Positions 10,127 to 40,692 of a stretch of 49,913 nt of DNA are shown in pieces (the stretch's first letter is position 1; every line of letters starts with the position of its first letter). A program made the translations under genes and the position numbers. Below the pieces are notes generated by a model that was not told the origin of the DNA, did no database searches, and saw only the letters and a list, made by a program, of their open reading frames with translations. Origin of the DNA: Chloroflexota bacterium (GTDB lineage: Bacteria; Chloroflexota; Anaerolineae; J102); assembly GCA_013151415.1 (NCBI GenBank), contig JAADII010000018.1, forward strand, positions 1 through 49,913, written 5' to 3'.

Positions 10127-10665
10127 ATTACGCCTCCAAAAATAATGAAACGCGCATCATTCGATTTCCGGCCATTGGGGCGGAAGCTGAATGCCATGAA
10201 ACGCGATGAACATGACAGGCCAAGATTGTGATGGCCGCGGTCTGGCCATGATGTTGGACAAAGCGCGCATCGAGAGGGGTTTGTATTATGCTACCACTGC
10301 AACGGTTCTGAAGCAAACGAAAAACACGTTTTGTTTGTGAGAATATGATCTAAATCATGGTCAGATTTCCACCTGGCCATTAAGGTTGGGTTAACCTCGG
10401 ACGCATGTACTCGTCTATCAGATTTGCCGCGGGTGAAAATCAGTGCGCCTGATTTCATTCCATCGCCGCTCCCGATCATGTCAACACGTTCATCCCTTGG
10501 CTTGCGCTCGCCTCGCCAAGCTCAACATCGTCGTTTTCGCTGTTTCCCGCCAATCATCTTGTTGAAGAAAGGAGGTGACCACCACGATCCAGTAGCCAAG
10601 AATCACAACCCGCTCACGGTATTTGACTCACCTCATGTTTGCATGAGTCTCGAGGAGGAAGTTCT
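10127..10665. promoter_or_regulatory. 539-bp divergent regulatory gap between argJ and the cytochrome operon
   Basis: No credible gene. It contains ATGATCTAAATCAT (10345-10358), a palindrome with an FNR/CRP-like TGAT-N4-ATCA core; AGGTT/AACCT arms at 10383-10397; AAATCAG/CTGATTT arms at 10437-10455; a perfect Shine-Dalgarno AAAGGAGGTGA (10568-10578) with no suitable start codon after it; and CTCATG-TTTG-CATGAG (10632-10647), a hairpin just before the true GGAGG of the cytochrome gene. I could not assign -35/-10 boxes with confidence. Confidence 0.55.
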
Positions 10666-13380
10666 ATGAAAAAATATCTCACGATCGGCATGATGTGCAT
10701 TCTCGTGCTGGTCGCTATCGCATTTTTTGGCCTGCCCAACGCCTGGGCGGCAGGCCCTCCAACCCAATCCAACCCGGCCCCGGCCATGCAGGCGGGTGAA
10801 CAGGAAGGCTGTCTGGCCTGCCATGAGGGCATTGAAGACATTCGCGACCCCGAAAGCGGCATGATGAAGGAGATCATGCAAAAGGGCCAGTGCACCACCT
10901 GTCATGGCGGCAATCCTGATGTGACCGATGACAAAGAGGCCGCGCATACGGGCGCGCCGGCCAGCCTGCCCTTCGATGAATTCTATCCTGATCCGGGCAG
11001 CATATGGGTCGCCGATAAGACTTGCGGTCAATGTCACGCGGGCTACACCGAAGCGTTGGAACGCTCGTTGATGAACACCGAAGCCGGCAAGATTCAGGGC
11101 AACCTGTGGGCCTGGGGCGTGGCCGAAGACCAGAAGGTGATTTACGGCAATTACGACGTGGAAGGTGCGGACCTGATATTTGGAACCAAGGCATATAAAG
11201 ATTATATGCAACAACTCATTCAGGCGTACCCCGACCAGTTCCCTCAGTCTTTGAAGCAGTTGCCCAATCCTTCGGTCGAGGAGATCGTTCAAGACCCCAA
11301 GCTGGCCGCGTTCACCTATCAACGCCAACAATGCCAGCGCTGTCATGTGGGCGTCAAGGGTCGAGCCAAGCGAGCGGACTGGCGCGGCATGGGCTGCTCG
11401 GCTTGTCATATCCCCTATAGCAACGAAGGTTTGTACGAAGGCAACGACCCCACCATCCCCAAGGATGAGCCCGGCCATTTGCTGGTTCACGAGATCCAGG
11501 CCACGCGAGAATCGCGCGGAGGCATTCCCGTTGAAACCTGCGTGACATGCCATAATCGCGGCAAGCGCATTGGCGTCAGCTATCAGGGGTTGATGGAGTT
11601 CCCCTACGGCTCGCCCTGGTTTGCCGATGGAACCAAGCAGGATGGCGAAATGCGCCTGCATACGAAGCGCTATCTCTTCATTAAGGAGGACCTCCACCAC
11701 GAACAGCAGAGCCGACCCGAAAACCCTGAAGGCGGGCTCTTGTGCCAAGACTGCCACACCAGCATCGAAATGCACGGCGATGGCAGCATTCCGGGCACCA
11801 CGCTGGCGCAGGTGGAGATCGAATGCGCCGATTGCCATGGCACGCCCACCGCTTATCCCTGGGAGCTGCCCTTGGGCTATGGCGAGGAGTTCTCTCGCGT
11901 AGAGATGCCCACCGAGCCGCGCGGGGTGGCCAGCTTGATGGACCTGCCGCAAAACCTGACCGATGGCGTGGTTCATGATCCTCAGGCCGGCTATCTGCTC
12001 ACCGCTCGCGGCAACCCCTTTGGCGACGTGGTGCGCACCGCCGACGACAAAGTGATCGTTCACTCGGCCACGGGCAAAGACTTCTATGTGCCTTTGCTCA
12101 AGACCATTGCTCAGGAAGGCTCTTGGAAGAGCCAGGACGCCGTGGTGGCCATGGAGAAGGTGAACGCTCACATGGAGAAGATGGAGTGCTACGCCTGTCA
12201 CGCCGACTGGGCGCCTCAGTGCTATGGCTGCCACGTCAACGTGCAATACACCGTCGATGCCGAGGGCAATGCGCTCACAGACACCGACTGGGTGGCCAGT
12301 GGCAACACCAAGAAAACCGACGGCACGCACGATGTGGTGAAATCACCAGGAAAAGTCAAGGAAACGCGCTCCTACCTGCGTTGGGAAGCCCCGGTGTTGG
12401 GCGTCAACGGCGAGGGTCGCGTAACGCCACTGATGCCTGGCTGTCAGGTTATCTTCACCGTCATTGGACCGGATGGCCAAACCCTCACTCACAACGAGAT
12501 CGGCCGCACGCCGCCCAACACCGAAGGCGGCGGCCCTGAGGGTCAGCGCGGCATGGACATGGCGCCTGTGCAGCCGCATACGGCCGGTCGTAAGGCGCGC
12601 ACCTGCGAAAGCTGCCATTCGGACCCGAAAGCCCTGGGCTACGGCATCGAAGGCGGACGATTCTTGCTGGGTTACGATCAGGACCGCATTATCGATCTGC
12701 GAGGACCCGACGGCGAGGTCATCCCCGCCAACGCCAGGGTTCAAATTGCAGCCATTCCCGATCTCCCCATGGACCTGAGCCAGATCATCGATCCAGAAAC
12801 CGGCGAGCAATTGATGACGGTCGGTTCGCACTGGCCAGATTCGGGCCCCTTGAGCGAAGACCAACGCACGCGCATGGAGCGCACCGGCGTGTGCATGGGC
12901 TGCCATCAAAACATGGCCGATCCAACATTCTGGAACGAGCAGGTCATCGCCAAGTTCGGTAAGGCGTTGAGCAACGAAGAGCACATCAAGGCCATGAATC
13001 AGGTGATTCAGGCATCTGTGGGCGGCGAGGTGGCCATGGCCCCGCAGCCTGCGCCCGAGACGCAGCCAACCACAGAAGCGCCCGCCGAAGCGCCCGCAGC
13101 CGAACAGCCCGCAAACGTGGACATGTCGGCCGTCGAAGGCAAGATCAACGCGGTGGAGGCCAAGGCCGACGAAGCCTTGAACACGGCCCAAGAGGCCAAG
13201 TCTCTCGCGACCGAGGCCGGAGCCAAAGCCGAAGCAGCAGAGAAAGCGGCCACCGAAGCCGTGAACGCCCTGCCCGCGACCACGAACATGACGCTGTACG
13301 TGATCCTGGCGCTGGTGCTGGGTCTGCTCATCGGCGGCGGCGTCGCCTATTTTGCCGGTCGCAAAGGTGAAGCAAGCTAA
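10666..13380 (+). CDS. Twelve-haem membrane-anchored cytochrome c
   Basis: 904 residues exported by an N-terminal signal (MKKYL, hydrophobic core, cleavage near NAWA-AG). Twelve CXXCH motifs are present: eight between residues about 49 and 410 (CLACH, CTTCH, CGQCH, CQRCH, CSACH, CVTCH, CQDCH, CADCH), a close pair near 507-523 (CYACH, CYGCH), then CESCH (about 646) and CMGCH (about 742). After a Pro/Ala/Glu linker comes an Ala/Lys/Glu heptad-like coiled coil (about 818-865) and one C-terminal membrane helix (about 874-896), so the haem part sits outside. ATG 10666 is preceded by GAGGAGG. It leads the bc operon, so it is probably its electron acceptor or donor; partner and substrate are unknown. 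I do not recognise a named family. Confidence 0.9.
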   Translation: MKKYLTIGMMCILVLVAIAFFGLPNAWAAGPPTQSNPAPAMQAGEQEGCLACHEGIEDIRDPESGMMKEIMQKGQCTTCHGGNPDVTDDKEAAHTGAPASLPFDEFYPDPGSIWVADKTCGQCHAGYTEALERSLMNTEAGKIQGNLWAWGVAEDQKVIYGNYDVEGADLIFGTKAYKDYMQQLIQAYPDQFPQSLKQLPNPSVEEIVQDPKLAAFTYQRQQCQRCHVGVKGRAKRADWRGMGCSACHIPYSNEGLYEGNDPTIPKDEPGHLLVHEIQATRESRGGIPVETCVTCHNRGKRIGVSYQGLMEFPYGSPWFADGTKQDGEMRLHTKRYLFIKEDLHHEQQSRPENPEGGLLCQDCHTSIEMHGDGSIPGTTLAQVEIECADCHGTPTAYPWELPLGYGEEFSRVEMPTEPRGVASLMDLPQNLTDGVVHDPQAGYLLTARGNPFGDVVRTADDKVIVHSATGKDFYVPLLKTIAQEGSWKSQDAVVAMEKVNAHMEKMECYACHADWAPQCYGCHVNVQYTVDAEGNALTDTDWVASGNTKKTDGTHDVVKSPGKVKETRSYLRWEAPVLGVNGEGRVTPLMPGCQVIFTVIGPDGQTLTHNEIGRTPPNTEGGGPEGQRGMDMAPVQPHTAGRKARTCESCHSDPKALGYGIEGGRFLLGYDQDRIIDLRGPDGEVIPANARVQIAAIPDLPMDLSQIIDPETGEQLMTVGSHWPDSGPLSEDQRTRMERTGVCMGCHQNMADPTFWNEQVIAKFGKALSNEEHIKAMNQVIQASVGGEVAMAPQPAPETQPTTEAPAEAPAAEQPANVDMSAVEGKINAVEAKADEALNTAQEAKSLATEAGAKAEAAEKAATEAVNALPATTNMTLYVILALVLGLLIGGGVAYFAGRKGEAS

Positions 13381-13474
13381 CCCTCCTCTCATTCCATCCT
13401 TTGTGAGCGCTTCGGCGTCGTCGAATGGGACGTCGAAGCGCTCACAACCTTAACCCACACACAAAAGAGCGCCC

Positions 13475-14329
13475 ATGAGCGTTTACGCGCATATGAATCA
13501 AACCATGAGACGCATGAAAGGCCGGCCCCTATTTTTGGGCGCGGTCGTAGGCGTCGTCGTCTTTATACTAGTCATCCTGATCGGCGTGGGGATCACCCAA
13601 TATCAACAACGGCAATGGGCCGAACAACAGCGGCAAGCCGAGCAGGCGCGCATTGAGCAAGAAGCCCTGGTGCTGGAAGCCGCAGCCCTCGACCAACTGG
13701 ACGCGGGGCATTATGAGAAGGCCATCGAAATGTTAGACCAGGTGATCGCCTTGTTGCCGCGCCGCAGCGAACCTTATTATTATCGAGCGGTCGCGCGCGC
13801 GGCTATAGGCGAATATGAGGCTGCGGTGGCCGATTTCGACGTGGCCGTGAACGCAAATCCTCACTGGGCGTTGCCCCTGGCCGGACGGGCCGCCAGCCAC
13901 GCGGCTTTGGGCGATCTCGACGCGGCCATTGAGGATTACACCAAGGCTATCCGCCTGGAACCGGGCGAAGGAGACCTTTACTCGAATCGAGGCCAGCTTT
14001 ATCATCAGCAAGGTAAATTGGATCTGGCCCTGGAAGACTTGAACCTGGCCGTGCAATTGGCGCCCGAATCGGTGGCCGCGCGTTTCAATCGAGGCGTGCT
14101 CTTCTTTGCCTTGGCCAAAGAAGAGGAGGCATTGGAGGATTTCAGCTACGCCATCATGTTGGACCCATCGCAGGCTCCTTCGTATTTCAATCGCGGTCTG
14201 ATCCTGGCTTCGCTGGGACGGAAAGAAGAAGCGAGAGAAGACCTTTTGCAATTCATCTCGCTCAGCGACAATCCCGATTGGACCAAACTGGCTCTTGACA
14301 CACTGGCGACCCTGGATAAAGAGCAATGA
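13475..14329 (+). CDS. Membrane-anchored TPR protein
   Basis: 284 residues. One membrane helix (about 21-43) follows a short basic cytoplasmic tail, then a short Gln/Glu/Ala-rich helical segment and about five tetratricopeptide repeats such as AIEMLDQVIALLPRRSEPYYYRAVARAAIGEYEAAVADFDVAV. TPRs bind other proteins, so a role in assembly or in docking the multihaem cytochrome is plausible but inferred. It starts 94 bp after the cytochrome gene and its TGA overlaps the ATG of the FAD/Fe-S oxidoreductase, implying coupled translation. The ribosome site is weak; ATGs a few codons in are alternatives. Confidence 0.85.
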   Translation: MSVYAHMNQTMRRMKGRPLFLGAVVGVVVFILVILIGVGITQYQQRQWAEQQRQAEQARIEQEALVLEAAALDQLDAGHYEKAIEMLDQVIALLPRRSEPYYYRAVARAAIGEYEAAVADFDVAVNANPHWALPLAGRAASHAALGDLDAAIEDYTKAIRLEPGEGDLYSNRGQLYHQQGKLDLALEDLNLAVQLAPESVAARFNRGVLFFALAKEEEALEDFSYAIMLDPSQAPSYFNRGLILASLGRKEEAREDLLQFISLSDNPDWTKLALDTLATLDKEQ

Positions 14330-16302
14330 GCGAAAAATACCACGTTTACGTGCCCGATTTGGAGTATTATAAAAATCAGATCAAATGCCAGGTGGGCTGT
14401 CCTGTGCGCACAGATGCGCGGGGTTATGTCACGGCTATCGCCCGCGGCGCCCTGGAGGAAGCTTACCGCATCGCTCGCACGCCCAATCCACTGGCGTCGA
14501 TATGCGGCCGAGTGTGCAACGCGCCCTGCGAAACAGCCTGTCGGCGGGGCGATATCGACGAGCCTGTGGCTATTCGACCTCTCAAACGCGTCGTCACCGA
14601 ACGATTCGGCGTGGAGTCGGGCCTGCCATTGGCCAGCTTGGAAGCCGAGATGGAGGTCGGCGCGGAGATATTGGGCAATCTCACGGTGCGAAGCCGGCGA
14701 ACCCTGGTGGAGCTGGCCCAAACTCCGGGCCGAAAACGAGGCAAGGTGGCGGTCATCGGTTCGGGCCCCGCGGGCCTGGGCTGCGCTCACGACCTGGCCG
14801 TGCTTGGTCATGAAGTGACCATTTTCGACGCCGCGCCCTATCCGGGCGGCATGTTGCGCACAGGCATCCCCCTTTATCGTCTCGACCGCACCCTGCTCGA
14901 TCGAGAAATTCAAAGCGTCATCGATTTGGGCGTGGAGCTGCGCATGAACACCGCCATCGGACGCGATGTCACCTTTCAGCAGCTACGCGAAGAATACGAC
15001 GCGGTGTTCATCGCCACCGGGCTGGGCGAAGGACGCTCATTGCGCATTCCAGGAGCGGACCTGGACGGCGTTCTCAAGGCCGTGGACTTTTTGCTGAACG
15101 TCAACATGGGCTATAAGGTGGATTTGGGGCAAAAAGTGATTGTCATCGGCGGCGGCAATGTGGCGGCCGACGCGGCTCGCATGGCGCTGCGCCAGCAATT
15201 GGCCGGAGATCGCCCCTTGACCGAAGCCGAAGTGTTGGAACTGGAGCGCGAGGCCGCTTCGGTGGAAACGCCCGCGGAAGATGAATCGTTGCACGCGGCC
15301 GTAGACGCAGCCCGAACCGCCCGCCGGCTGGGCGTGGCCGAAGTGCACATGATCGCCCTGGAATCATGGGAGGAGCTGCCAGCAAGCGAGATCGAGATCG
15401 AAGAATCATTGGAGGAAGGGGTTCAGATCCATCCCGGCTACGGTCCGCACCGCATTTTGGGCAAAAATGGCAAGGTGGTGGGATTGGAAACGCTGGATGT
15501 GCTCTCGGTGTTCGATGAAGATGGCCGTTTCAATCCCAAATTCAAGCCCAATAGCGAGAAGGTGTGGGATTGCGACACCGTGATCCTGGCCATTGGGCAA
15601 GCGGCGGATCTGCGCTTTCTGGAGGGCGAAGAGGACATTGAAATCAGTCCTCGAGGATTGATCGTGGCGGATCCGCAGACGGGGGCCACCACAGCCAAAG
15701 GCGTGTATGCCGGCGGTGATGTGGTCTATGGCCCGCGCATTCTCATCGAGGCTGTGCGCGATGGCCAGCGTTCGGCCCGCGCCATCGACGGGCAAATTCA
15801 GCAAAAGCGCGTCGAACGACGCACCCGCGTGGTTTGGACCGAACGGAAAAACCACACCATGCCCGAAGGCTACACCAAACGACCGCGCTCACGCGTGCCC
15901 ACTTTGCCCGTGGATCGACGCATCGGCATCGCGGAAGTGGAAGTGGGCTACGATTTGGACGAAGCCGTGGCTCAGGCCGAACGCTGCCTGAATTGCGGCG
16001 TCAACACCGTGTTCGATGGAACGAAGTGCATCCTCTGCAACGCCTGCGTCGATGTGTGCCCTTGGGACTGTTTGAAAATCGTCTCGTTGACCGATATCGA
16101 AGGAGACGAAACCTTGAACGCTGTGGTGAAACGCACCTATGGCTACGATCTGACCGAGCTAGCCGAACAGGGCGTCCCGGCCGCAGCCATGCTCAAAGAC
16201 GATGATCTATGCACCCGCTGCGGACTTTGCGCAAAACGATGCCCCACCGGCGCCATCACCATGGAAACGTTTTCGTTCACCGAGCAATTGGTTTACGTGT
16301 GA
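14326..16302 (+). CDS. GltD-like FAD/NAD(P) oxidoreductase with N- and C-terminal Fe-S domains
   Basis: 658 residues, cytoplasmic by lack of a signal. Residues 21-72 carry the GltD-type Fe-S domain (CQVGC, then ICGRVCNAPCETAC). A first dinucleotide fold VIGSGPAGLG (about 144-152) binds FAD and a second IGGGNVAADAAR (about 270) binds NAD(P). The tail has ERCLNC followed by two ferredoxin-type cluster motifs (CILCNACVDVCP and CTRCGLCAKRCP). The family includes glutamate synthase small subunits, but no gltB is near and the C-terminal ferredoxin module is extra. Position inside a bc operon suggests it passes electrons between NAD(P)H or ferredoxin and the quinone/cytochrome complex. A comparable flavin/Fe-S subunit has been described for bc complexes of anammox bacteria. 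Direction of flow is unknown. Confidence 0.92.
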   Translation: MSEKYHVYVPDLEYYKNQIKCQVGCPVRTDARGYVTAIARGALEEAYRIARTPNPLASICGRVCNAPCETACRRGDIDEPVAIRPLKRVVTERFGVESGLPLASLEAEMEVGAEILGNLTVRSRRTLVELAQTPGRKRGKVAVIGSGPAGLGCAHDLAVLGHEVTIFDAAPYPGGMLRTGIPLYRLDRTLLDREIQSVIDLGVELRMNTAIGRDVTFQQLREEYDAVFIATGLGEGRSLRIPGADLDGVLKAVDFLLNVNMGYKVDLGQKVIVIGGGNVAADAARMALRQQLAGDRPLTEAEVLELEREAASVETPAEDESLHAAVDAARTARRLGVAEVHMIALESWEELPASEIEIEESLEEGVQIHPGYGPHRILGKNGKVVGLETLDVLSVFDEDGRFNPKFKPNSEKVWDCDTVILAIGQAADLRFLEGEEDIEISPRGLIVADPQTGATTAKGVYAGGDVVYGPRILIEAVRDGQRSARAIDGQIQQKRVERRTRVVWTERKNHTMPEGYTKRPRSRVPTLPVDRRIGIAEVEVGYDLDEAVAQAERCLNCGVNTVFDGTKCILCNACVDVCPWDCLKIVSLTDIEGDETLNAVVKRTYGYDLTELAEQGVPAAAMLKDDDLCTRCGLCAKRCPTGAITMETFSFTEQLVYV

Positions 16303-16449
16303 TTTGATAATGACAAGGCGCGGAGCTTATGCGACAAAGCGCGATGGTTCCGCCATCTTAATCAATAAGCCACCGACGCCCTACGCCGTTTCTTTTGGAA
16401 AGCATTCTCCGTTTAGCGCTATGAATTCATGAAAGGAGACAAACCCACC

Positions 16450-17211
16450 ATGACCACTTGGAGCCAACGCATCACGCGATCTCGCGTATGGCGATCCTTT
16501 TTCCGGCACGGCTGGCCGGACAACCCGCTCGATCGCTCGCTGGTGATGACAACCAATATCTTCTTCCATTTGCACCCGGTCAAAGTCAGCCGCGCCAGTC
16601 TCAAGGCCACCTATTCTTTTGGGTTGGGCATTTTGGCCACGATCTTGTTCGGCATTTTGGCCATCACCGGGACGCTCATCATGTTCTATTATGTCCCTTC
16701 CACCGAGCGGGCCTATGAAGACATCATTTTCTTGCAGACCAAAGTGCCTTATGGCCAGCTTATGCGCAACATGCATCGCTGGGCTGCGCACGGCATGGTG
16801 TTGGTGGTGGTGTTGCACATGGTGCGGGTGTTTTATACAGGCGCCTACAAACCGCCTCGTGAATTCAACTGGATCGTCGGCGTCATCCTGCTTCTATTGA
16901 CGCTCGGCGCCAGCTTCACCGGTTATCTATTGCCCTGGGATCAGCTCTCTTATTGGGCCATCACCGTCGGCACCAACATCGCCGGTTATGCGCCGTTCAT
17001 TGGACCGGACCTGCGAATGATGCTTCTTGGCGGCGTCGAGGTGGGGCAAAACGCGCTCACCCGCTTCTACGCCCTCCATATCATGGTGATTCCGGGCGCG
17101 TTGCTCCTGCTGATCTCGTTGCATATCTGGCGCGTGCGTAAAGACGGCGGTCTGGCCGCCCAACGAAAAGCCGAAGACAGCTTGAATATCGTTGGAGAGG
17201 AAACCTTATGA
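16450..17211 (+). CDS. Cytochrome b N-terminal subunit (b6 type)
   Basis: Haem b-binding membrane core of a quinol-oxidising bc complex, 253 residues and four main membrane helices. Haem ligands are visible as His pairs: MHRWAAHGMVLVVVLH in helix B (14 apart) and LHIMVIPGALLLLISLH in helix D (15 apart); the latter spacing is the b6f-like one. TGYLLPWDQLSYWAITVGTNI is the family Qo block. Start ATG 16450 is chosen because AAAGGAG lies 11-12 nt upstream; an ATG at 16429 would start inside that site. It overlaps the next gene by 4 bp (ATGA). Downstream of the FAD/Fe-S protein by 147 bp with no other gene between. Confidence 0.95.
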   Translation: MTTWSQRITRSRVWRSFFRHGWPDNPLDRSLVMTTNIFFHLHPVKVSRASLKATYSFGLGILATILFGILAITGTLIMFYYVPSTERAYEDIIFLQTKVPYGQLMRNMHRWAAHGMVLVVVLHMVRVFYTGAYKPPREFNWIVGVILLLLTLGASFTGYLLPWDQLSYWAITVGTNIAGYAPFIGPDLRMMLLGGVEVGQNALTRFYALHIMVIPGALLLLISLHIWRVRKDGGLAAQRKAEDSLNIVGEETL

Positions 17212-17975
17212 GCCAAGAGACGACCCCCAAACAAGACGAGCGCTTCGCTCGCGGCCCACAGAAAACCTATAGCCTCATGGAATTGGTGCGGGGCACATCC
17301 CCCATGGTGGATAAAGGCCCCGATGACACGGTTTTCTCCTTTCCTGTTGTGGCGCTCATCGAACTTTTGTTGCTTTTGGGAACCACGGTGTTCCTGCTTT
17401 TCTTCTCGCTGTTGCGCGACGCCCCTTTGGAGGAGCTGGCCAATCCCGACATCGTGACCAACCCGGCCAAAGCTCCATGGTATTTCATGGCGTTGCAAGA
17501 ACTGCTGTTGCACATGCACCCGGTGCTGGCCGGCATCATTGTGCCGGGCGTGGTGGTGGTGTTTCTTATCATTCTCCCCTATATCGATTATGACAACTCG
17601 GATGCGGGACGCTGGTTCGCGACCAAACGGGGGCCCAAGTGGGTGTTTTTCACCGCACTTTACACCACGCTCGCCCAAGCGTTTTTGATTGTGTTCGATG
17701 AAAAAATGGGCCTGCGAGGCTTGGGCGCGGCTTCACCCCTGATCTTGCAGGTCATTGGCCCCATCCTTTTTGGCGTGGTGCTGTTTGGCATTCCCATGTT
17801 CATTGTGTGGTTTAAGAAGCCCACCCGCCGCGAATGGATGTTGGTGATCTTCACCATCATCATCGTCTCCGCGGTCGTGCTCACCATCAGCGGCTTCCTT
17901 TTCCGCGGCCCGGGAATGCATCTCTACGCCCCTTGGAACATGCCCGACGGATACAACCCGTGGTCGAGTTTGTAG
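17208..17975 (+). CDS. Cytochrome b C-terminal subunit (subunit IV type)
   Basis: 255 residues with about five or six membrane helices. It supplies the second half of the cytochrome b fold. The quinol-site block reads NPAKAPWYFMALQELLL, so the classical PEWY Glu is replaced (APWY). Similar substitutions are known in menaquinol-type complexes from memory, but I cannot check here. It is longer than b6f subunit IV (about 160 residues) because of three additional C-terminal helices, resembling the QcrC/bc1-type C-half. Start overlaps the b6 subunit stop (ATGA), so the pair is co-translated. Confidence 0.92.
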   Translation: MSQETTPKQDERFARGPQKTYSLMELVRGTSPMVDKGPDDTVFSFPVVALIELLLLLGTTVFLLFFSLLRDAPLEELANPDIVTNPAKAPWYFMALQELLLHMHPVLAGIIVPGVVVVFLIILPYIDYDNSDAGRWFATKRGPKWVFFTALYTTLAQAFLIVFDEKMGLRGLGAASPLILQVIGPILFGVVLFGIPMFIVWFKKPTRREWMLVIFTIIIVSAVVLTISGFLFRGPGMHLYAPWNMPDGYNPWSSL

Positions 17976-18020
17976 TGGTTGCATGCTCCAGGTTCATGGC
18001 CTTACTGTTCGAAGTTCAAA

Positions 18021-18076
18021 GAACGATGGATGAAGAAATCGCTTTGTCGTCTCATCGTCTTTTCGTCCCATCGTCC
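18021..18076. repeat. Family-B palindromic word inside the bc operon
   Basis: The 124-bp gap between subunit IV and the Rieske gene contains ACGATGGA (18023-18030) and CCCATCGTCC (18067-18076) with several CATCGTC-like words between them. The ends can pair as an imperfect hairpin. It is the same word family as at 1661-1702 and 20061-20096. Confidence 0.55.
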
Positions 18077-18099
18077 AATGTTTTGAAACGAGGCGTATT

Positions 18100-18591
18100 A
18101 TGACAAAGTCGCAAGACAAGCCAGGACAAGTCACCCGTCGTGAATTTTTCGGCGCCATTTTTGGTCTCTCGCTGGTGGCGATGATGGCCCAATTTGGCTC
18201 TGTGTTGGCTCGCTTTCTAGAGCCGGTGATCGAGGAGGGAGCGTTTGGCACGGTGGTGCGCGCCGGCCGCGTGGAGGAGTTCGAGGTCGGCTCTGTCAAT
18301 TATTTCCGTCAAGCGCGCTTTTACCTTGTGCGACTAGAGGACGGATTCCTGGCCGAATATCGCAAGTGCACCCATTTAGGCTGTGTGGTTCCCTGGATCG
18401 AAGAGGAGGGCATCTTCAATTGCCCTTGCCATAGCTCCCTTTTCACAAAAGAAGGGGAGGTGATAAGCGGTCCTGCGCCACGCCCTCTGGATTTATTCCC
18501 CATTGAGATCCGGGATGGCGTCATCTACGTAGACACCGGAACCATCATTGAGCGAGAGGCTTTTCACCCCGACCAACTGACGCCGGCATAA
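18100..18591 (+). CDS. Rieske [2Fe-2S] protein of the bc complex
   Basis: 163 residues. The N-terminus has a twin-Arg-like TRREFFGAIFG followed by one membrane helix; the rest is the periplasmic Rieske domain. Cluster ligands are in CTHLGC and CPCHSS boxes (about residues 88-93 and 107-112), both complete with Cys and His. The protein carries electrons from quinol at the Qo site to a cytochrome c. No cytochrome f or c1 gene is present, so the four-domain cytochrome c downstream or the 12-haem protein is the likely acceptor. ATG 18100 follows a family-B repeat; the stop is 12 bp before the cytochrome c gene. Confidence 0.95.
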   Translation: MTKSQDKPGQVTRREFFGAIFGLSLVAMMAQFGSVLARFLEPVIEEGAFGTVVRAGRVEEFEVGSVNYFRQARFYLVRLEDGFLAEYRKCTHLGCVVPWIEEEGIFNCPCHSSLFTKEGEVISGPAPRPLDLFPIEIRDGVIYVDTGTIIEREAFHPDQLTPA

Positions 18592-18603
18592 GGGAGTTGC
18601 ACG

Positions 18604-19842
18604 ATGAAATCACGAGAAGATTATCGTTTTCAAATGTGGTTGACGGCCGTATTCGCCGTAACCACCATGTTGCTCGTCGGGCTTTACACCCTACGCGAGC
18701 CCGCCCGCATGTTGGCGACCGAACGCGCGTTGGAGCAAGAGGCCATTGAACGCGCGGAGGTTGTCTGGGAGCAAGACTGCGCCACGTGCCACGGCAAACA
18801 TGGCGAAGGCGTGCGCAACAGCGGACCGGCCCTCAACACGCAAGAATTTTTGAAAGAGGCGACCGACGAGATCATATTCAACACCATCAACGACGGCCGG
18901 CCCGGCACATCGATGCCGGCGTGGGGTCAACCGCGCGGAGGCCCATACAACGCTCAGGTGATCGATGATCTTGTCAAGCTGATCCGCTCATGGGAGCCCA
19001 CCGCGCCCTCGGTGGCCGAGATGAAGCCCGAGGGCGACCCCACCCAAGGCGCGGTGCTTTTCGCGACGACTTGTTTCGCGTGTCATGGCGTGGCTGGCGA
19101 GGGCACAAGCGTGGGCCTGCGCCTGAATGATCCGGCGCGACTGGCGCGCTTCAGTGATGACTATTATCGAGACGTGATCCAGTTTGGGCGGCCCGACCGA
19201 GGCATGCCCACCTGGGGATCAGTGCTCTCGCCGCAACAGATCGAAGACCTGGTGGCCTACATTCGTAGTTGGGAAACCGAACCGCCCGTGGCCATGGCCC
19301 AATTGGGTGGAGACGCGATGAACGGCAGAGACATCTTCCAGGCCACTTGTGCGACGTGTCATGGTCGCAACGGACAGGGCACGGACATCGCGCCGCCTTT
19401 GGCCGAAGCGCCCATCCTCGCAGACGCCGATGCATTGTATGAAACCATTAGCCACGGCCGAATCGAAGCGGGCATGCCCAATTGGGGTCAGGTTCTCTCG
19501 CCGGCCGAGATCAACGACGTCATCGCCTATTTGGGCACGCTCAAAGCCGGTGAAGCGCCGGCGGAGGAAACACAACCCGACGCGGGCGAACAAGACCAGG
19601 CGCTAGGCCGGGCGCAATTCCTTTATGTGCAACATTGCGCCACGTGTCACGGTCTCCAGGGCGAAGGCACCGAAGACCGACCGCCATTGGCCAACAGCGA
19701 ATATATTCAGACCAATACAGACGAAGCGATTATCAGCGTCATCGCCAATGGAAGACCCAATACGCCCATGGAAGGCTTCAGCAATGTATTGAGCCAGGAA
19801 GAGATATTAGGCATCCTGGAGTTGTTGCGAAGCTGGCAATAA
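18604..19842 (+). CDS. Membrane-anchored tetra-domain cytochrome c
   Basis: 412 residues. One N-terminal uncleaved membrane helix (about 10-30) is followed by four class-I-like cytochrome c domains of about 85 residues, each with CATCHG or CFACHG at its start (about residues 59, 159, 252 and 346) and a later GMP or TPM Met region as likely sixth ligand. A Glu/Pro/Asp linker separates domains 3 and 4. Start ATG 18604 has GGGAG upstream. Probably the periplasmic electron carrier that replaces cytochrome c1/f in this complex; last gene of the operon, followed by a hairpin. Confidence 0.93.
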   Translation: MKSREDYRFQMWLTAVFAVTTMLLVGLYTLREPARMLATERALEQEAIERAEVVWEQDCATCHGKHGEGVRNSGPALNTQEFLKEATDEIIFNTINDGRPGTSMPAWGQPRGGPYNAQVIDDLVKLIRSWEPTAPSVAEMKPEGDPTQGAVLFATTCFACHGVAGEGTSVGLRLNDPARLARFSDDYYRDVIQFGRPDRGMPTWGSVLSPQQIEDLVAYIRSWETEPPVAMAQLGGDAMNGRDIFQATCATCHGRNGQGTDIAPPLAEAPILADADALYETISHGRIEAGMPNWGQVLSPAEINDVIAYLGTLKAGEAPAEETQPDAGEQDQALGRAQFLYVQHCATCHGLQGEGTEDRPPLANSEYIQTNTDEAIISVIANGRPNTPMEGFSNVLSQEEILGILELLRSWQ

Positions 19843-26086: not shown

Positions 26087-27259
26087 ATGTGGTTCTTCGA
26101 CTGTCCGGAGATCATCTACGGTGATGATGCGTTGAGCCATCTGGAAGAAATTCGGGGCGAGCGCGCGTTCATCGTCACCGATCCTGTGCTACATGAGCTG
26201 GGCTTCACACAGCGCATCGTCGAGCGTTTGCAATCCACGGGCATGGCCATCGAATGGTTCTCTGAGGTCGAGCCTGAGCCCTCTTTCCAAACTGTGCAAA
26301 AAGGCGCAGCGCAAATGCGAGCTTTCGAGCCGGACTGGATCATCGGCCTGGGCGGCGGCTCCTCCATCGACGCGGCCAAGGCCATGTGGGTGCTTTACGA
26401 GCGGCCCGACCTGCAACCAGATGAAATCAGCCCCATGATGGAGCTGAACATCGGCAAGAAAGCCAGGCTCATCGCCATTCCCACCACGGCTGGCACCGGG
26501 TCCGAGGCCACATGGGCCACAGTGTTGACCGATCAAAGCGATGGTCGCAAGCTGGCCTTAGGTTCGCGCGAGACCATGCCCACCAAGGCCATTGTTGATC
26601 CCGCGCTCACCTACGAACTGCCCCCGCGCATCACAGCGGACACCGGCCTGGACGCGCTGACGCATGCGGTGGAGGGTTATCTCTCCAGCTTTCACAACGA
26701 CTTCACCGATGGCATTTGCATCAAAGCCATTCAACTGATATTCGAATATCTGCCGCGCGCTTACGCAGAGCCTCAGGACGTGGAAGCTCGCGAGCATATG
26801 GCCAACGCGGCCACATTGGGCGGATTGGGGTTCATCAACTCATGGGCCTCATTGGCCCATGCCATGGGCCATGCGTTCGGCGGCTTTTTCAAGATTCCGC
26901 ATGGGCGCAGCGTCAGCCTCTTTTTGCCTTACACATTGGAATATATCGCCCGCGAACCCGAACTGACCCGCTTTCGCGACATCGCTCACGCCCTTCGACT
27001 GCCCGAAGGCGAGGCCGAAGAGCCCGAAGCCGCGGCCGCGGTCATCAAGGCCATACGCGAGCTGCATGGCCGCGTCGATCAGCCGCTCAGCGTCGAAGCC
27101 CTGGGCGTTTCGCGGCCGGATTACGAAGCCCGCATCGAGGAACTGTGTGAGTTCGCGGAGGGAGACGGGACGTTCATCAGCGCAGTTCGCATCCCCGAAC
27201 GAGATGACCTGGCGCGGCTGTTTCTCTACGCGTTCGATGGCCGGAAAATCGATTTCTAA
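26087..27259 (+). CDS. Iron-containing alcohol dehydrogenase
   Basis: 390 residues, group III alcohol dehydrogenase. NAD(P) site GLGGGSSIDAAKA (about 89-101), PTTAGTGSEATWATV, then metal ligands DTGLDALTHAVEGY (Asp and His) and HAMGHAFGGFFKIPHG (two His). Interconverts an alcohol and aldehyde or ketone; substrate unknown. It is coupled to the SCP2 gene upstream and followed, after a repeat-containing gap, by an aldehyde:ferredoxin oxidoreductase, so the two may oxidise an alcohol to acid through the aldehyde, or work in reverse with ferredoxin. Confidence 0.95.
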   Translation: MWFFDCPEIIYGDDALSHLEEIRGERAFIVTDPVLHELGFTQRIVERLQSTGMAIEWFSEVEPEPSFQTVQKGAAQMRAFEPDWIIGLGGGSSIDAAKAMWVLYERPDLQPDEISPMMELNIGKKARLIAIPTTAGTGSEATWATVLTDQSDGRKLALGSRETMPTKAIVDPALTYELPPRITADTGLDALTHAVEGYLSSFHNDFTDGICIKAIQLIFEYLPRAYAEPQDVEAREHMANAATLGGLGFINSWASLAHAMGHAFGGFFKIPHGRSVSLFLPYTLEYIAREPELTRFRDIAHALRLPEGEAEEPEAAAAVIKAIRELHGRVDQPLSVEALGVSRPDYEARIEELCEFAEGDGTFISAVRIPERDDLARLFLYAFDGRKIDF

Positions 27260-27447: not shown

Positions 27448-29316
27448 ATGGGACGATTCTTCACCCCTGCTCCGCCCGCCATCTTGCCCGGCTACATGGG
27501 CAAAATCTTGCGCGTGGACCTGACCACAGGCCGTCTGTGGGATGAACCGCTCAACGAAGCCTATGCTCGCGATTTCATCGGCGGTAGCGGCCTGGCCGCG
27601 CGCTATCTGGCCGACCTGGCCGGATCGGACACCGACCCACTTGGCCCCGAGAATCCGCTTATCTTCATGACCGGCCCTTTGGTGGGAACCACGACGCCGG
27701 CCGCAGGACGGTTTTCAGTGGTCGCGCGTTCGCCCGCGACCGGGCTCACGGGCGAGGCCAATTCGGGCGGCTATTGGGGTCCCGAGCTACGTCGCGCGGG
27801 ATATGACGGCATCATCATCACCGGCCAGGCCAAGCGCCCCGCGTGGTTGGAAATCCGAGAGGGCATGGCCCCCCGTCTGCACCAGGCCGACCATCTTTGG
27901 GGCCTGGACATGTATGAGACGCAGGCCGCGATTCGCGAGGAGATGGGCGACAACCGCGCTCGCGTGGCCTGCATTGGCCCTGCAGGGGAAAATCTTGTGC
28001 TCTATGCCGGGGTGATGAACGACCACGGTCGAGCCGCGGCGCGCACGGGCATGGGCGCGGTTATGGGAAGCAAGCGGCTCAAGGCCATCGCGGTGCGCGG
28101 CCGCGCCAAAGTTCCTCTGCACAATCCAGAAGCCAACAAAACCGCCAATCGTCATGTCACCCAACATGTCATCGACGACATCACCGCGCAGATGATGCGA
28201 TTGGGCGGGACCATGCTCTCCATGGATTTTGGCCCCATCACCGGCGATGTGCCCGCGCGCTATTACACCACCAACGAGTTGGACGGCATCGAAGACCGCA
28301 TCAACGCCGGACAACTGAGCGACAATTATCTCAAGCGTCACGTGCCTTGTTTCCGCTGCCCCATCGCCTGCGGTCGCGAGGTCGAGTTGCCCGGCGTGGA
28401 GGGCGTGGTGGACGGCCCGGAATATGAGACCGCGGTCTCCTTTGGCCCCATCATTGGTTCGGACGATCTGGAGGCCGCGGCGCTGGCCGGGCACTTGTGC
28501 AACCGCTATGGCCTGGACGCCATCTCTTGCGGCTCGACCATTGCTTTCGCCTATTATCTCTTCGAAAACGGGATCATCGACGAGCGCGTGACCGATGGCC
28601 TGACGTTGCGTTGGGGCGACCCCCAGCCCGCCCTTGTCTTGATCGAAAAAATCGCCCATCGCCAAGGGTTCGGTGATCTGCTGGCCGAGGGCGCGGCGCG
28701 CGTGGGCGAGGCGTTGGGCGTTCCCGACCTGGCCGTGCATGTGAATAAGCTGGAAGTCCCCTATCACGACGTGCACGCGCATTCGGGCCAGGGCGTGGTT
28801 TACGCGACCTCGACGCGCGGGGCCTGTCATATGGCCGGAGACATCTACCATTGGGAGCAAGGTCGCGAGATGCCCGAGTTGGGCATTGTGTACGGCGATC
28901 CGCACGAAGAATCGTTGGAAAAGATGCAGATGGTGGCGCGGGTCATGGATTTCCGCGCCTTCACAAACAGCGCCATCCTCTGCCATTTCGAAGACATCCC
29001 CATCCCCACCTTTTTGGAGCTGTGGGAGACCATCACCGGCGAGACCTGGGATGCGGACGACCTAGCGCGGGCCGGCGAACGCATCTTCAACCTGAAACGC
29101 GCGCTCAACCATCGCTTTGGCCTTACGCGGGCCAACGACACCCTGCCCAAACCCCTTCGTCGCGCGTTCGACAGCGGTCCCACGGCCGGCTACGCGCCCG
29201 ACATTGAAACCATGGTGCAATACTACTACCAGGCCCGCGGCTGGGACGCAACCACCGGCAAACCCACGCCTGAGACGCTGGAAAGGCTGGGGTTGGAGGA
29301 TTTTGTGAGCGAATGA
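27448..29316 (+). CDS. Aldehyde:ferredoxin oxidoreductase family (tungstopterin) protein
   Basis: 622 residues. The N-terminal domain GYMGKILRVDLTTGRLWDEPL, IGGSGLAARYL and GRFSVVARSPATGLTGEANSGGYWGPELRRAGYDGI is diagnostic for AOR. The 4Fe-4S cluster motif is CFRCPIAC near residues 295-302 with a later Cys in AILCHFED as candidate fourth ligand. The enzyme oxidises aldehydes to acids and reduces ferredoxin, or the reverse, using a bis-pterin W or Mo cofactor. Cytoplasmic. ATG 27448 follows AGGAAG. Co-directional with the iron alcohol dehydrogenase. Confidence 0.95.
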   Translation: MGRFFTPAPPAILPGYMGKILRVDLTTGRLWDEPLNEAYARDFIGGSGLAARYLADLAGSDTDPLGPENPLIFMTGPLVGTTTPAAGRFSVVARSPATGLTGEANSGGYWGPELRRAGYDGIIITGQAKRPAWLEIREGMAPRLHQADHLWGLDMYETQAAIREEMGDNRARVACIGPAGENLVLYAGVMNDHGRAAARTGMGAVMGSKRLKAIAVRGRAKVPLHNPEANKTANRHVTQHVIDDITAQMMRLGGTMLSMDFGPITGDVPARYYTTNELDGIEDRINAGQLSDNYLKRHVPCFRCPIACGREVELPGVEGVVDGPEYETAVSFGPIIGSDDLEAAALAGHLCNRYGLDAISCGSTIAFAYYLFENGIIDERVTDGLTLRWGDPQPALVLIEKIAHRQGFGDLLAEGAARVGEALGVPDLAVHVNKLEVPYHDVHAHSGQGVVYATSTRGACHMAGDIYHWEQGREMPELGIVYGDPHEESLEKMQMVARVMDFRAFTNSAILCHFEDIPIPTFLELWETITGETWDADDLARAGERIFNLKRALNHRFGLTRANDTLPKPLRRAFDSGPTAGYAPDIETMVQYYYQARGWDATTGKPTPETLERLGLEDFVSE

Positions 29317-35378: not shown

Positions 35379-36752
35379 TTGCACCTTCCGGCCTCCTTAA
35401 CGCCATTGAGTCAGAGCGTTCTTTTACCTTCATTGCAAGAGGCCCATCGGCGTCAGCAGCGCGCCCTGGGTCTCTCCTCTTTTACACCGCCCTCTCGCCA
35501 AAACGATTCGACATTATGGGATGACCGGGCGTTGGCGTCCCTCATCTCAACCACCTGGGAGCAAACGCCCCAACGCATCGCACATTTGCTGGGGCTCGAT
35601 GATGATATCGAAACCCACGGCCGCGGCAAGGCGACCAAAGCAAGCAAGGCGGCCCAACGGTTGCTTCAAGAGATCGAAGCAAGCCAGGGGCGGCTACGCG
35701 CGTGGGCCGAGAACGTCTTCGAGATGAGCTGGAGTCAGGCTCAGCTTCTTCAGGTGATGGAACAAATCGAACCCTATGTCGCGGACGCGCTCTACGACGA
35801 ACAGCGCCTGGCTGCGGCCGCGATCGGCGCATATGCCCATTTAGGTGAATCGTTAGAACAACGCCTGGACGAAGAAAGCTACCAGCGCGTGCTCCTCTTG
35901 GTGGGCGGGGTGGACGCGCCGGAAATGGACATGGTGGAAGCCTTGGCTTCGGGGGTTGAAACAGACGCGTTTCGACGCCGATTTGGTCATCGCGGAGACC
36001 ATGAATGGGAACTGGCCGAACCCCGCTGGAGCGAACGCCATCCTCCCCAGGCCATGAAGCCCAGGCCCAGCGCGGCGTGGGACCCCGCGACGGCCAAACG
36101 GCGAGCGCAAGACGCGCTGGAGGAAACCGCCGCTCAAGTGGGATGGCTGCAACGCAATGCATTTCGACGCCATGTTGAGCTGACGCGACGCCTGCTCAGC
36201 GCTCACGCGTACGCCGTCGACGCTTTGGCCTATGTATTGGCTGCGGTGCGTCGTTGGAGCCTGGCCGCGGCCGAAGAGGCCAGACGCGACGGCCAACGCT
36301 TGGACGAACCCAACCAGATATTCTGGCTGGAACTGGAGGAAGTGAAACAGGTGATGACCGGCGAATGGCACAGTCGAGATCAGGTGCAGCCTCTTGTGAA
36401 AGAACGCATGGCTGAGCCGCGCGGCAAGCCGCTCTCGCGACAAGAGCAAAGCGCTCGGTTAGGCGTGGCCGGGCATTTCGTAGAAGCTCCCGCACAGTTT
36501 CTGAACCATCCCGAAGCGATCGCGACCATGCGCGCAGACGCCATCGCCCTGGTGATTGAAACCACGCCCATTTGGCCGGGGCTGTTTCTGCAAGCCAGAG
36601 GCGTCGCGGCCGCATCGGGGCACCTATTGTGCCATACGGCCGCGAGCGCCCGAGCGGGAGGGGTCCCCGCGGTGGTTGGCGCGGCAATCCCGGCCGAAAA
36701 GGCGCTTTTCCGGCTCGATCCGGCCCGACACCAGGCCATGCCGGCGCAATGA
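35379..36752 (+). CDS. Stand-alone C-terminal half of a PEP-utilising enzyme
   Basis: 457 residues from a TTG start (35379) preceded 7 nt upstream by AGGAG. Residues about 260-320 resemble the helical linker of PEP synthase/rifampicin phosphotransferase-like enzymes (RLDEPNQIFWLELEEVKQVM). The C-terminal swivelling domain has FLQARGVAAASGHLLCHTAASARAGGVPAVVG, with His about 419 at the phosphohistidine position but Cys instead of the usual Ser before it. There is no ATP-grasp or PEP-binding TIM barrel, and the usual DGxxVxVD end strand is missing. No partner ATP-grasp gene is next to it. Function unknown; it could be a degenerate or regulatory member. Confidence 0.72.
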   Translation: MHLPASLTPLSQSVLLPSLQEAHRRQQRALGLSSFTPPSRQNDSTLWDDRALASLISTTWEQTPQRIAHLLGLDDDIETHGRGKATKASKAAQRLLQEIEASQGRLRAWAENVFEMSWSQAQLLQVMEQIEPYVADALYDEQRLAAAAIGAYAHLGESLEQRLDEESYQRVLLLVGGVDAPEMDMVEALASGVETDAFRRRFGHRGDHEWELAEPRWSERHPPQAMKPRPSAAWDPATAKRRAQDALEETAAQVGWLQRNAFRRHVELTRRLLSAHAYAVDALAYVLAAVRRWSLAAAEEARRDGQRLDEPNQIFWLELEEVKQVMTGEWHSRDQVQPLVKERMAEPRGKPLSRQEQSARLGVAGHFVEAPAQFLNHPEAIATMRADAIALVIETTPIWPGLFLQARGVAAASGHLLCHTAASARAGGVPAVVGAAIPAEKALFRLDPARHQAMPAQ

Positions 36753-39736: not shown

Positions 39737-39780
39737 AACCTCAGGCGAATGTATTGCATCCAAAAGCCAGGAGGCTTATT

Positions 39781-40692
39781 ATGATCCCACAGACAAAGAC
39801 GATGGAATATCAACTCGAACTCAGCGGTCTTCGACCCGACCCCATTCACACCTGGCGTCGCTTGCGCGAGTTTTTGCAATTGGATGAGCATGCGGTGGTG
39901 CAAATGCGCCATACGTCTGAGGTGCTCTTGGAAAATGCAGCGCCCTTTGTGGTGGCCGCTTACGATTACCTGGCTCAATTCGACGAAACCGCGGCCGTGT
40001 TGGGTTGGGAGCAAGAGATGGATGAAGAGCATCTGCGCGAACGGCGACAGTTCTTCTCCACCTGGATGGCGCGCACCATTGGCGTGGACTTCAGCGATGA
40101 GTTTGCAGAATATTTGTTTCATGCCGGGCGACTCCATGCAGGACATGGACCTCGCCAAATCCATACGCCCGATTTATGGGTCATGGGTGCAATGGGCCTG
40201 GTGCAAGCCTATTTCGCCGAACGCATCATCCAGGCCGGCTTCGATCCCGAATTGACCGCCGGCGCGATCGGCGCCTGGAACAAATATTTGATGCTGCAAA
40301 CGCGACAGATGAACGAAGGGTATAAAGTGGCGTTGGCTTTGGATGAAGGGCCGCAGACGGTCGAGGTTAAGTTATATGGACGCCTGCGCACACTTATAGG
40401 GCGCGAACAGCAAACCGTGCATGTGCACGCAGACTCGACCGTGGCCGATGCGCTGCGCAAATTTTTCGATTATTATCCCACGCTGCGCAAAGAGTTGTTC
40501 CAGGTGCGCTGGCGCACGCCTCAGAATGGACACGACGCAACCTGGGCCACCGACTTCGAAACGGTGTATGTGCCTCGTAGCGGCCCCTACTGGCGCATTT
40601 TGCTCAATGGCCGCGATCTGAGTTACGACGGCGGCTTCGACGCCATGCTCCAACCAGGCGACGTCATCGCGCTTTTCCCGCCAGGCCGCTGA
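39781..40692 (+). CDS. Protoglobin/globin-sensor domain fused to MoaD/ThiS-like beta-grasp domain
   Basis: 303 residues from ATG 39781 (CAGGAGG upstream). Residues about 10-185 look like a protoglobin or globin-coupled-sensor domain: helical, with RRQFFSTWMARTIG followed by EYLFHAGRLHAGHGPRQIHTPDLWVMGAMGL, where His119 is the likely haem-proximal ligand. Residues about 193-303 form a ubiquitin-like beta-grasp domain (VEVKLYGRLRTLIGREQQTVHVHADSTVADALRKFF ... WRILLNGRDL ... LQPGDVIALFPPGR) as in MoaD/ThiS. It ends PPGR rather than the Gly-Gly needed for thiocarboxylation, and has an insert at about 245-270. A gas- or redox-responsive protein that engages a MoeB/ThiF-type partner or acts as a scaffold is possible. 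I do not know a described family with this pairing. No signal peptide, so cytoplasmic. Confidence 0.82.
   Translation: MIPQTKTMEYQLELSGLRPDPIHTWRRLREFLQLDEHAVVQMRHTSEVLLENAAPFVVAAYDYLAQFDETAAVLGWEQEMDEEHLRERRQFFSTWMARTIGVDFSDEFAEYLFHAGRLHAGHGPRQIHTPDLWVMGAMGLVQAYFAERIIQAGFDPELTAGAIGAWNKYLMLQTRQMNEGYKVALALDEGPQTVEVKLYGRLRTLIGREQQTVHVHADSTVADALRKFFDYYPTLRKELFQVRWRTPQNGHDATWATDFETVYVPRSGPYWRILLNGRDLSYDGGFDAMLQPGDVIALFPPGR

Follow-up and report, generated by a model that had tools for sequence, protein, structure and literature searches.

Globin-coupled sensors combine a globin sensor at the N-terminus with an output domain at the C-terminus, and the outputs known for them are kinases, diguanylate cyclases and chemoreceptors. 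Among related globins, the protoglobin of M. acetivorans (MaPgb) carries a proximal His(120)F8 and a distal Tyr(61)B10 (PMC3680402). The sulfur carrier MoaD, which has a beta-grasp fold, can be encoded adjacent to the tungsten enzyme aldehyde:ferredoxin oxidoreductase (AOR) or be fused to it (Iyer et al. 2006, PMC1779556), and archaeal AORs are described, in a paper treating aorABCDE of Aromatoleum, as being among the most O2-sensitive enzymes (PMC6365974). For nitrate respiration in T. thermophilus, the DUF2249 proteins DrpA and DrpB have been proposed to act as nitrate sensors (PMC6282519).

We have analysed a stretch of 49,913 nucleotides from a member of the Chloroflexota, termed the window below, which encodes a protein in which a protoglobin is joined to a MoaD-like beta-grasp domain (39781..40692, + strand). 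The open reading frame comprises 303 amino acids, from an ATG at 39781 to a stop codon at 40690-40692, as the first-pass annotation had placed it, and this ATG is preferred as the start over the listed TTG at 39754 because a Shine-Dalgarno-like AGGAGG, read directly, lies six bases ahead of it (39769..39774, +). No Rfam elements were found around the gene. The AlphaFold2 model, built from 63 aligned natural relatives, has a pLDDT of 91 and a pTM of 0.88, and is all-helical over residues 21-187 and beta-grasp over residues 192-303. The anatomy of the fusion, with its two domains and both folds, is secure; the first-pass annotation had stated that a predicted structure lacking either fold would speak against it, and both are present. 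Public records name the protein 'protoglobin domain-containing protein' or 'hypothetical protein' at most, and leave some Thermus copies unannotated, so that its second half has gone unnoticed in public annotation.

A homologue search that took in C-termini and gene neighbours, as had been recommended at the outset, yielded 65 further Chloroflexota loci encoding the fusion at 40-68% identity (66 with the window). It was found in 7 of the 400 genomes of a phylum-wide Chloroflexota sample, in 60/396 genomes of a class-wide sample, which also gave weak matches to the globin part only, and in 6/158 genomes of a second class; all six of the nearest named records are MAGs of Anaerolineae. Outside the Chloroflexota, among the collections searched, homologues occur on 15 Thermus plasmids (37% identity for Thermus thermophilus), and a search of phages gave no match to the fusion. 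The alignment referred to below has 63 rows and omits three disrupted or odd loci, one that loses its reading frame past residue 213 (L054), one with a stop close to its start (L093) and one with the C-terminus FPPWVTYF (L091).

The globin half (residues 21-187; 39841..40341, +) matches Pfam Protoglobin PF11563 over residues 26-181 with 67.7 bits (cut-off 25; E 1.5e-18). In structure comparisons, residues 21-182 resemble the sensor globin of AfGcHK (5ohf_F) with Z 20.8 over 152 residues at 1.6 A, and the globin half matches MaPgb with Z 17.8. The presumed proximal F8 haem ligand, His119 (40135..40137, +), aligns with residue 120, a His, in the Aeropyrum protoglobin (ApPgb; 195 residues), the equivalent of the proximal His(120)F8 of MaPgb (PMC3680402). 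Tyr61 (39961..39963, +), the presumed distal B10 residue, shares both its number and its motif with Tyr(61)B10 of MaPgb (PMC3680402) and is probably its counterpart. Both residues are invariant in 63/63 aligned fusion sequences, and the globin half would be expected to bind haem and O2 or NO. The globin-like fold and its proximal His had been proposed in the first-pass annotation, and both proposals are borne out.

The C-terminal half (residues 192-303; 40354..40689, +) is a MoaD/ThiS/SAMP1-like beta-grasp domain, in agreement with the ubiquitin-like sulfur-carrier fold originally suggested for it. It matches Pfam ThiS PF02597 over residues 196-301 with 28.8 bits (cut-off 22.5; E 1.9e-6), and the NCBIfam models SAMP1 and moaD_arch below their own cut-offs. 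Residues 191-303 match the structure of SAMP1 (4hro_B) with Z 13.1 over 88 residues at 1.6 A, and the beta-grasp half matches the MoaD-related Thermus protein 1v8c_A with Z 12.9. The C-terminal Phe-Pro-Pro-Gly-Arg (40675..40689, +) replaces the carrier tail PPVxGG. Its last four residues, P300-P301-G302-R303, already noticed in the single sequence as standing in place of Gly-Gly, are identical in 63/63 aligned homologues and recur as PPGR in the Thermus proteins; constancy across two phyla implies that the tail is under selection and not decayed, and a degraded MoaD tail is ruled out by the same invariance.

SAMP1 has 87 residues. In the structural alignment R303 lies opposite its residue 85 and its terminal Gly-Gly is left without a counterpart, such that the fusion ends about two residues before the sulfur-carrying glycines. 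Gly-Gly, required for adenylation and thiocarboxylate formation, is the defining feature of MoaD/ThiS sulfur carriers, and because PPGR occupies its place we do not file the fusion as one; MoaD-type sulfur carriage by the fused domain is very unlikely. The free-standing MoaDs which adjoin the same AORs in relatives mostly end in FPPVGGG, FPPVGGGR or FPAVGGG, and the window's genome encodes a separate MoaD with an FPPVGGGR end on contig C40. A loop of the beta-grasp domain carries the invariant residues W244, W255 and W271 (residues 244-271; 40510..40593, +), as seen in the alignment and the AlphaFold2 model; the model of the loop is partly of low confidence, with a pLDDT of 59 around residues 251-260, and the loop is a candidate partner-binding surface.

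When all open reading frames around the 66 fusion loci were clustered, an AOR was found within 1 kb of the fusion at 22 of them, where copy number and genome size would predict about 0.15. These fusion-adjacent AORs constitute one subfamily, with pairwise identities of at least 61% and a median of 69%. A MoaD is also present at 16 of the 22 loci and a DUF1952 protein at 10, while MoeA and tungstate-transporter genes (TupA match) occur at other fusion loci. The partner AOR subfamily is carried by 39 of 40 genomes with the fusion and by 5 of 40 without it, in two sets of genomes of the class that we picked and fixed before the co-occurrence result, and the corresponding Fisher p = 7e-16 is too small because the genomes are related and do not constitute independent samples. 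The exceptions are one fusion genome that lacks the subfamily and five genomes with the subfamily in which the fusion was undetected; within families f117 and f107 the same contrast holds, and families f104 and f120 each include one genome with the AOR subfamily and no detected fusion. AOR in general proved uninformative as a predictor of the fusion (65/65 fusion against 57/65 non-fusion genomes), and since any AOR is common in both sets the link is specific to the subfamily.

DUF1952 proteins located beside MoaD and AOR (about 81-85 aa) nearly always end in R-G-G-G or R-A-G-G, as at L076, L071, L075, L053, L073 and others, and in the window's own genome at L120:5561-5854 (-); they look like another carrier with a glycine tail in the AOR system, and at locus L082 MoaD and DUF1952 are joined in one protein.

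The first-pass annotation had also drawn attention to a tungstopterin-type enzyme in the window which might or might not be related to the fusion. A tie to one AOR subfamily exists elsewhere, as described above, but the window's own AOR (27448-29316) lies 10.5 kb from the fusion and, with about 33% identity to the fusion-adjacent AORs, belongs to another subtype and is ruled out as the partner; on this sequence comparison the two genes are probably unrelated. The partner-type AOR of the window's genome lies on another contig (C176, 6909-8735; 69% identity), and within the window neither a partner AOR nor a denitrification gene adjoins the fusion. The window's AOR is directly downstream of an iron-type alcohol dehydrogenase, named by eye (26087-27259), and the two may form an aldehyde/alcohol redox pair. 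Elsewhere in the window, the run at 10639-19842 (a multihaem cytochrome, a TPR protein, a glutamate-synthase-like Fe-S protein, cytochrome b pieces and a cytochrome c with multiple haem motifs) resembles, by eye, an electron-transfer complex, and the 457-aa product of 35379-36752, with partial PEP synthase matches mainly at its end segments, appears to be a stand-alone swivelling-domain protein.

The reading that we favour, as a tentative one which could readily prove wrong, is that the fusion is a globin-coupled O2/NO sensor whose sulfur-dead MoaD-like output docks on AOR or on the cofactor machinery. The N-terminal globin would bind haem via His119 and, with Tyr61 lining the distal pocket, would sense O2 or NO. 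The beta-grasp domain, kin of the MoaDs that serve tungsten AORs, has kept the fold and lost Gly-Gly, so that neither adenylation nor sulfur carriage is expected of it, and it would most likely dock at the place of MoaD, on a partner-subfamily AOR or on cofactor machinery such as a MoaE/MoeB-type enzyme or MoeA. Gas binding would then alter the docking, with the result that a tungsten enzyme sensitive to O2 and NO is restrained, protected or set free as the levels of oxygen and nitrogen oxides change. A contact between the beta-grasp domain and AOR is plausible because MoaD is known beside AOR or fused to it (PMC1779556), and this link, together with the O2 sensitivity of archaeal AORs (PMC6365974), makes docking a reasonable reading; we infer both the docking on AOR or cofactor machinery and its change by O2/NO. 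The more specific proposal, that O2 or NO makes the PPGR beta-grasp occupy or leave the MoaD site and so switches W-pterin insertion or AOR activity, is possible and rather doubtful. Many loci are of the denitrification kind and lack an AOR, and the Thermus copy lies in a nar cluster, so that the direct target may be something other than AOR.

At these other Chloroflexota loci the fusion is found among nosZ, nosY, nosL, cytochrome c, CRP/FNR-type regulator, small cupin and membrane protein genes, of which nosY, nosL and cytochrome c were named by eye and the CRP/FNR-type regulators by Pfam. In Thermus the gene order is dnrT-dnrS, narCGHJI-transporter, drpA, drpB, a COX1-like gene, the fusion and a membrane protein. 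The fusion is therefore a member of a nar cluster in Thermus and of nos clusters in Chloroflexota, and of neither in the window or its genome. On well-supported branches of the family tree, at least four changes are required for the AOR context and at least three for the nos/membrane context, which implies that one orthologous protein moves between settings and that two proteins have not been confused.

A recurrent membrane neighbour, c3, has 12 predicted TM helices (pLDDT 84) and no Pfam match, and a fold search relates it to subunit I of haem-copper oxidases and NO reductases (Z 28 for cbb3, Z 26 for NOR). NnrS was considered as its identity, but no NnrS profile matched. The c3 family (L047:10051-11139 and 11 relatives) has invariant His and recurs beside the fusion and the small cupin; in the window's own genome c3 (G000:C177:2237-3307, -) and the cupin lie together on contig C177, which is not the contig of the fusion. 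The membrane neighbours c3, c6 and c7 gave no naming match in Pfam or NCBIfam, and c7 resembles COX1 weakly. At eight loci of the window's clade a membrane protein of about 400 aa is encoded 3' of the fusion on the same strand (e.g. L063:8238-9461, -), for which neither a profile match nor a match in the window's genome was found. The DUF2249 domain of Thermus DrpB (L116:12704-13522) gives a weak TusA score (E 3.9e-5, under the cut-off), a likeness to another sulfur-carrier-like fold beside the fusion.

The strongest rival draws on this denitrification context and assigns the fusion a purely regulatory role in it. The globin would sense NO or O2 and the beta-grasp domain would be an adaptor controlling nar/nos expression or maturation, with CRP/FNR regulators, DUF2249 proteins and the haem-copper-fold membrane protein as partners, while coexistence with AOR would reflect a shared lifestyle. 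In its favour are the place of the Thermus fusion after drpA and drpB with dnrST and narCGHJI nearby, the Chloroflexota copies that lie in or beside nos operons, next to CRP/FNR-type regulators and c3 or c7, the DUF2249 homologues close to three of the Chloroflexota copies, and an enrichment of NosZ (26/60 fusion genomes against 56/336 others, p 1.7e-5). However, the AOR association is far stronger than that with NosZ, narG does not co-occur with the fusion (5/40 fusion against 2/40 non-fusion genomes), FNR/DNR boxes are absent upstream of the fusion in the 66 loci, and the window's genome has neither a nos_propeller match nor a full-length narG. On balance we consider this reading unlikely.

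Less probable again is a detoxifying haem protein that scavenges O2, NO or peroxynitrite near AOR or NosZ, with the beta-grasp domain as a mere anchor. In vitro, protoglobins do act as nitrite reductases and peroxynitrite isomerases (PMC4020757), and O2- or NO-sensitive metal enzymes are present in both contexts (PMC6365974), but the fusion lacks a reductase domain and has no consistent reductase neighbour, its structurally nearest globins are sensor globins, and the invariant tail and Trp loop exceed the needs of an anchor. A gas-controlled working carrier or modifier, in which Arg303 is trimmed and an E1-like enzyme activates the one Gly left at the end, as for ubiquitin-like proteins with one terminal Gly, could draw on the FPPVGGGR ends of some neighbouring MoaDs, since Arg trimming may exist in these cells, but it is highly improbable given a tail that falls short of the SAMP1 tail by about two residues and should not reach an E1 active site, and a GG-tailed MoaD already encoded alongside in most AOR loci.

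Returning to the docking sensor, signalling through a MoaD-like output would be a new route and would link gas sensing directly to molybdenum/tungsten cofactor biology, and the fusion together with its AOR-subfamily association suggests a new way in which a tungsten enzyme, or the supply of its cofactor, could be controlled by O2 or NO. To our knowledge, such a protein would have no precedent among globin-coupled sensors in signalling via a ubiquitin/MoaD-type fold, or among AOR regulators in responding to a gas, and we know of no account of how cells meeting O2 or NO manage their very oxygen-sensitive AORs. Because the nitrate-respiration region that holds the Thermus homologue is transferable and in experimental use, the question can be tested directly in a laboratory organism.

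In the literature searched, no paper describes a protoglobin-MoaD fusion, the matches for globin plus MoaD being unrelated, and the combination appears to be new, as had been supposed. The described AOR-MoaD neighbourhoods (PMC1779556; aorABCDE of Aromatoleum, PMC6365974) share AOR, MoaD, DUF1952 and MoeA with the surroundings of many fusion relatives; globin is mentioned nowhere in PMC1779556, and the operon passages of PMC6365974 describe none. In the drpAB/dnrST system of T. thermophilus (PMC6282519) the Thermus homologue occupies the same nar region, just behind drpAB; DrpA and DrpB are DUF2249 proteins, unlike the fusion, which is absent from that paper, as are the words globin and MoaD. 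With MoaD, SAMP1 and 1v8c (MoaD plus DUF1952), residues 191-303 share the beta-grasp fold at 30-34% identity in structural alignment, and differ by the GR end without Gly-Gly, the loop with invariant Trp and the fused globin. With AfGcHK, HemAT, DosC and MaPgb the fusion shares the globin fold (Z 16-21), the proximal F8 His and the distal B10 Tyr, whereas Thr or Ala mostly takes the place of the MaPgb B9 Trp in the fusion family. By family, the sensor half is that of a globin-coupled sensor, and the fusion has the same order of N-terminal sensor and C-terminal output; its output, however, is a MoaD-like beta-grasp instead of a kinase, cyclase or chemoreceptor, and fits no known class.
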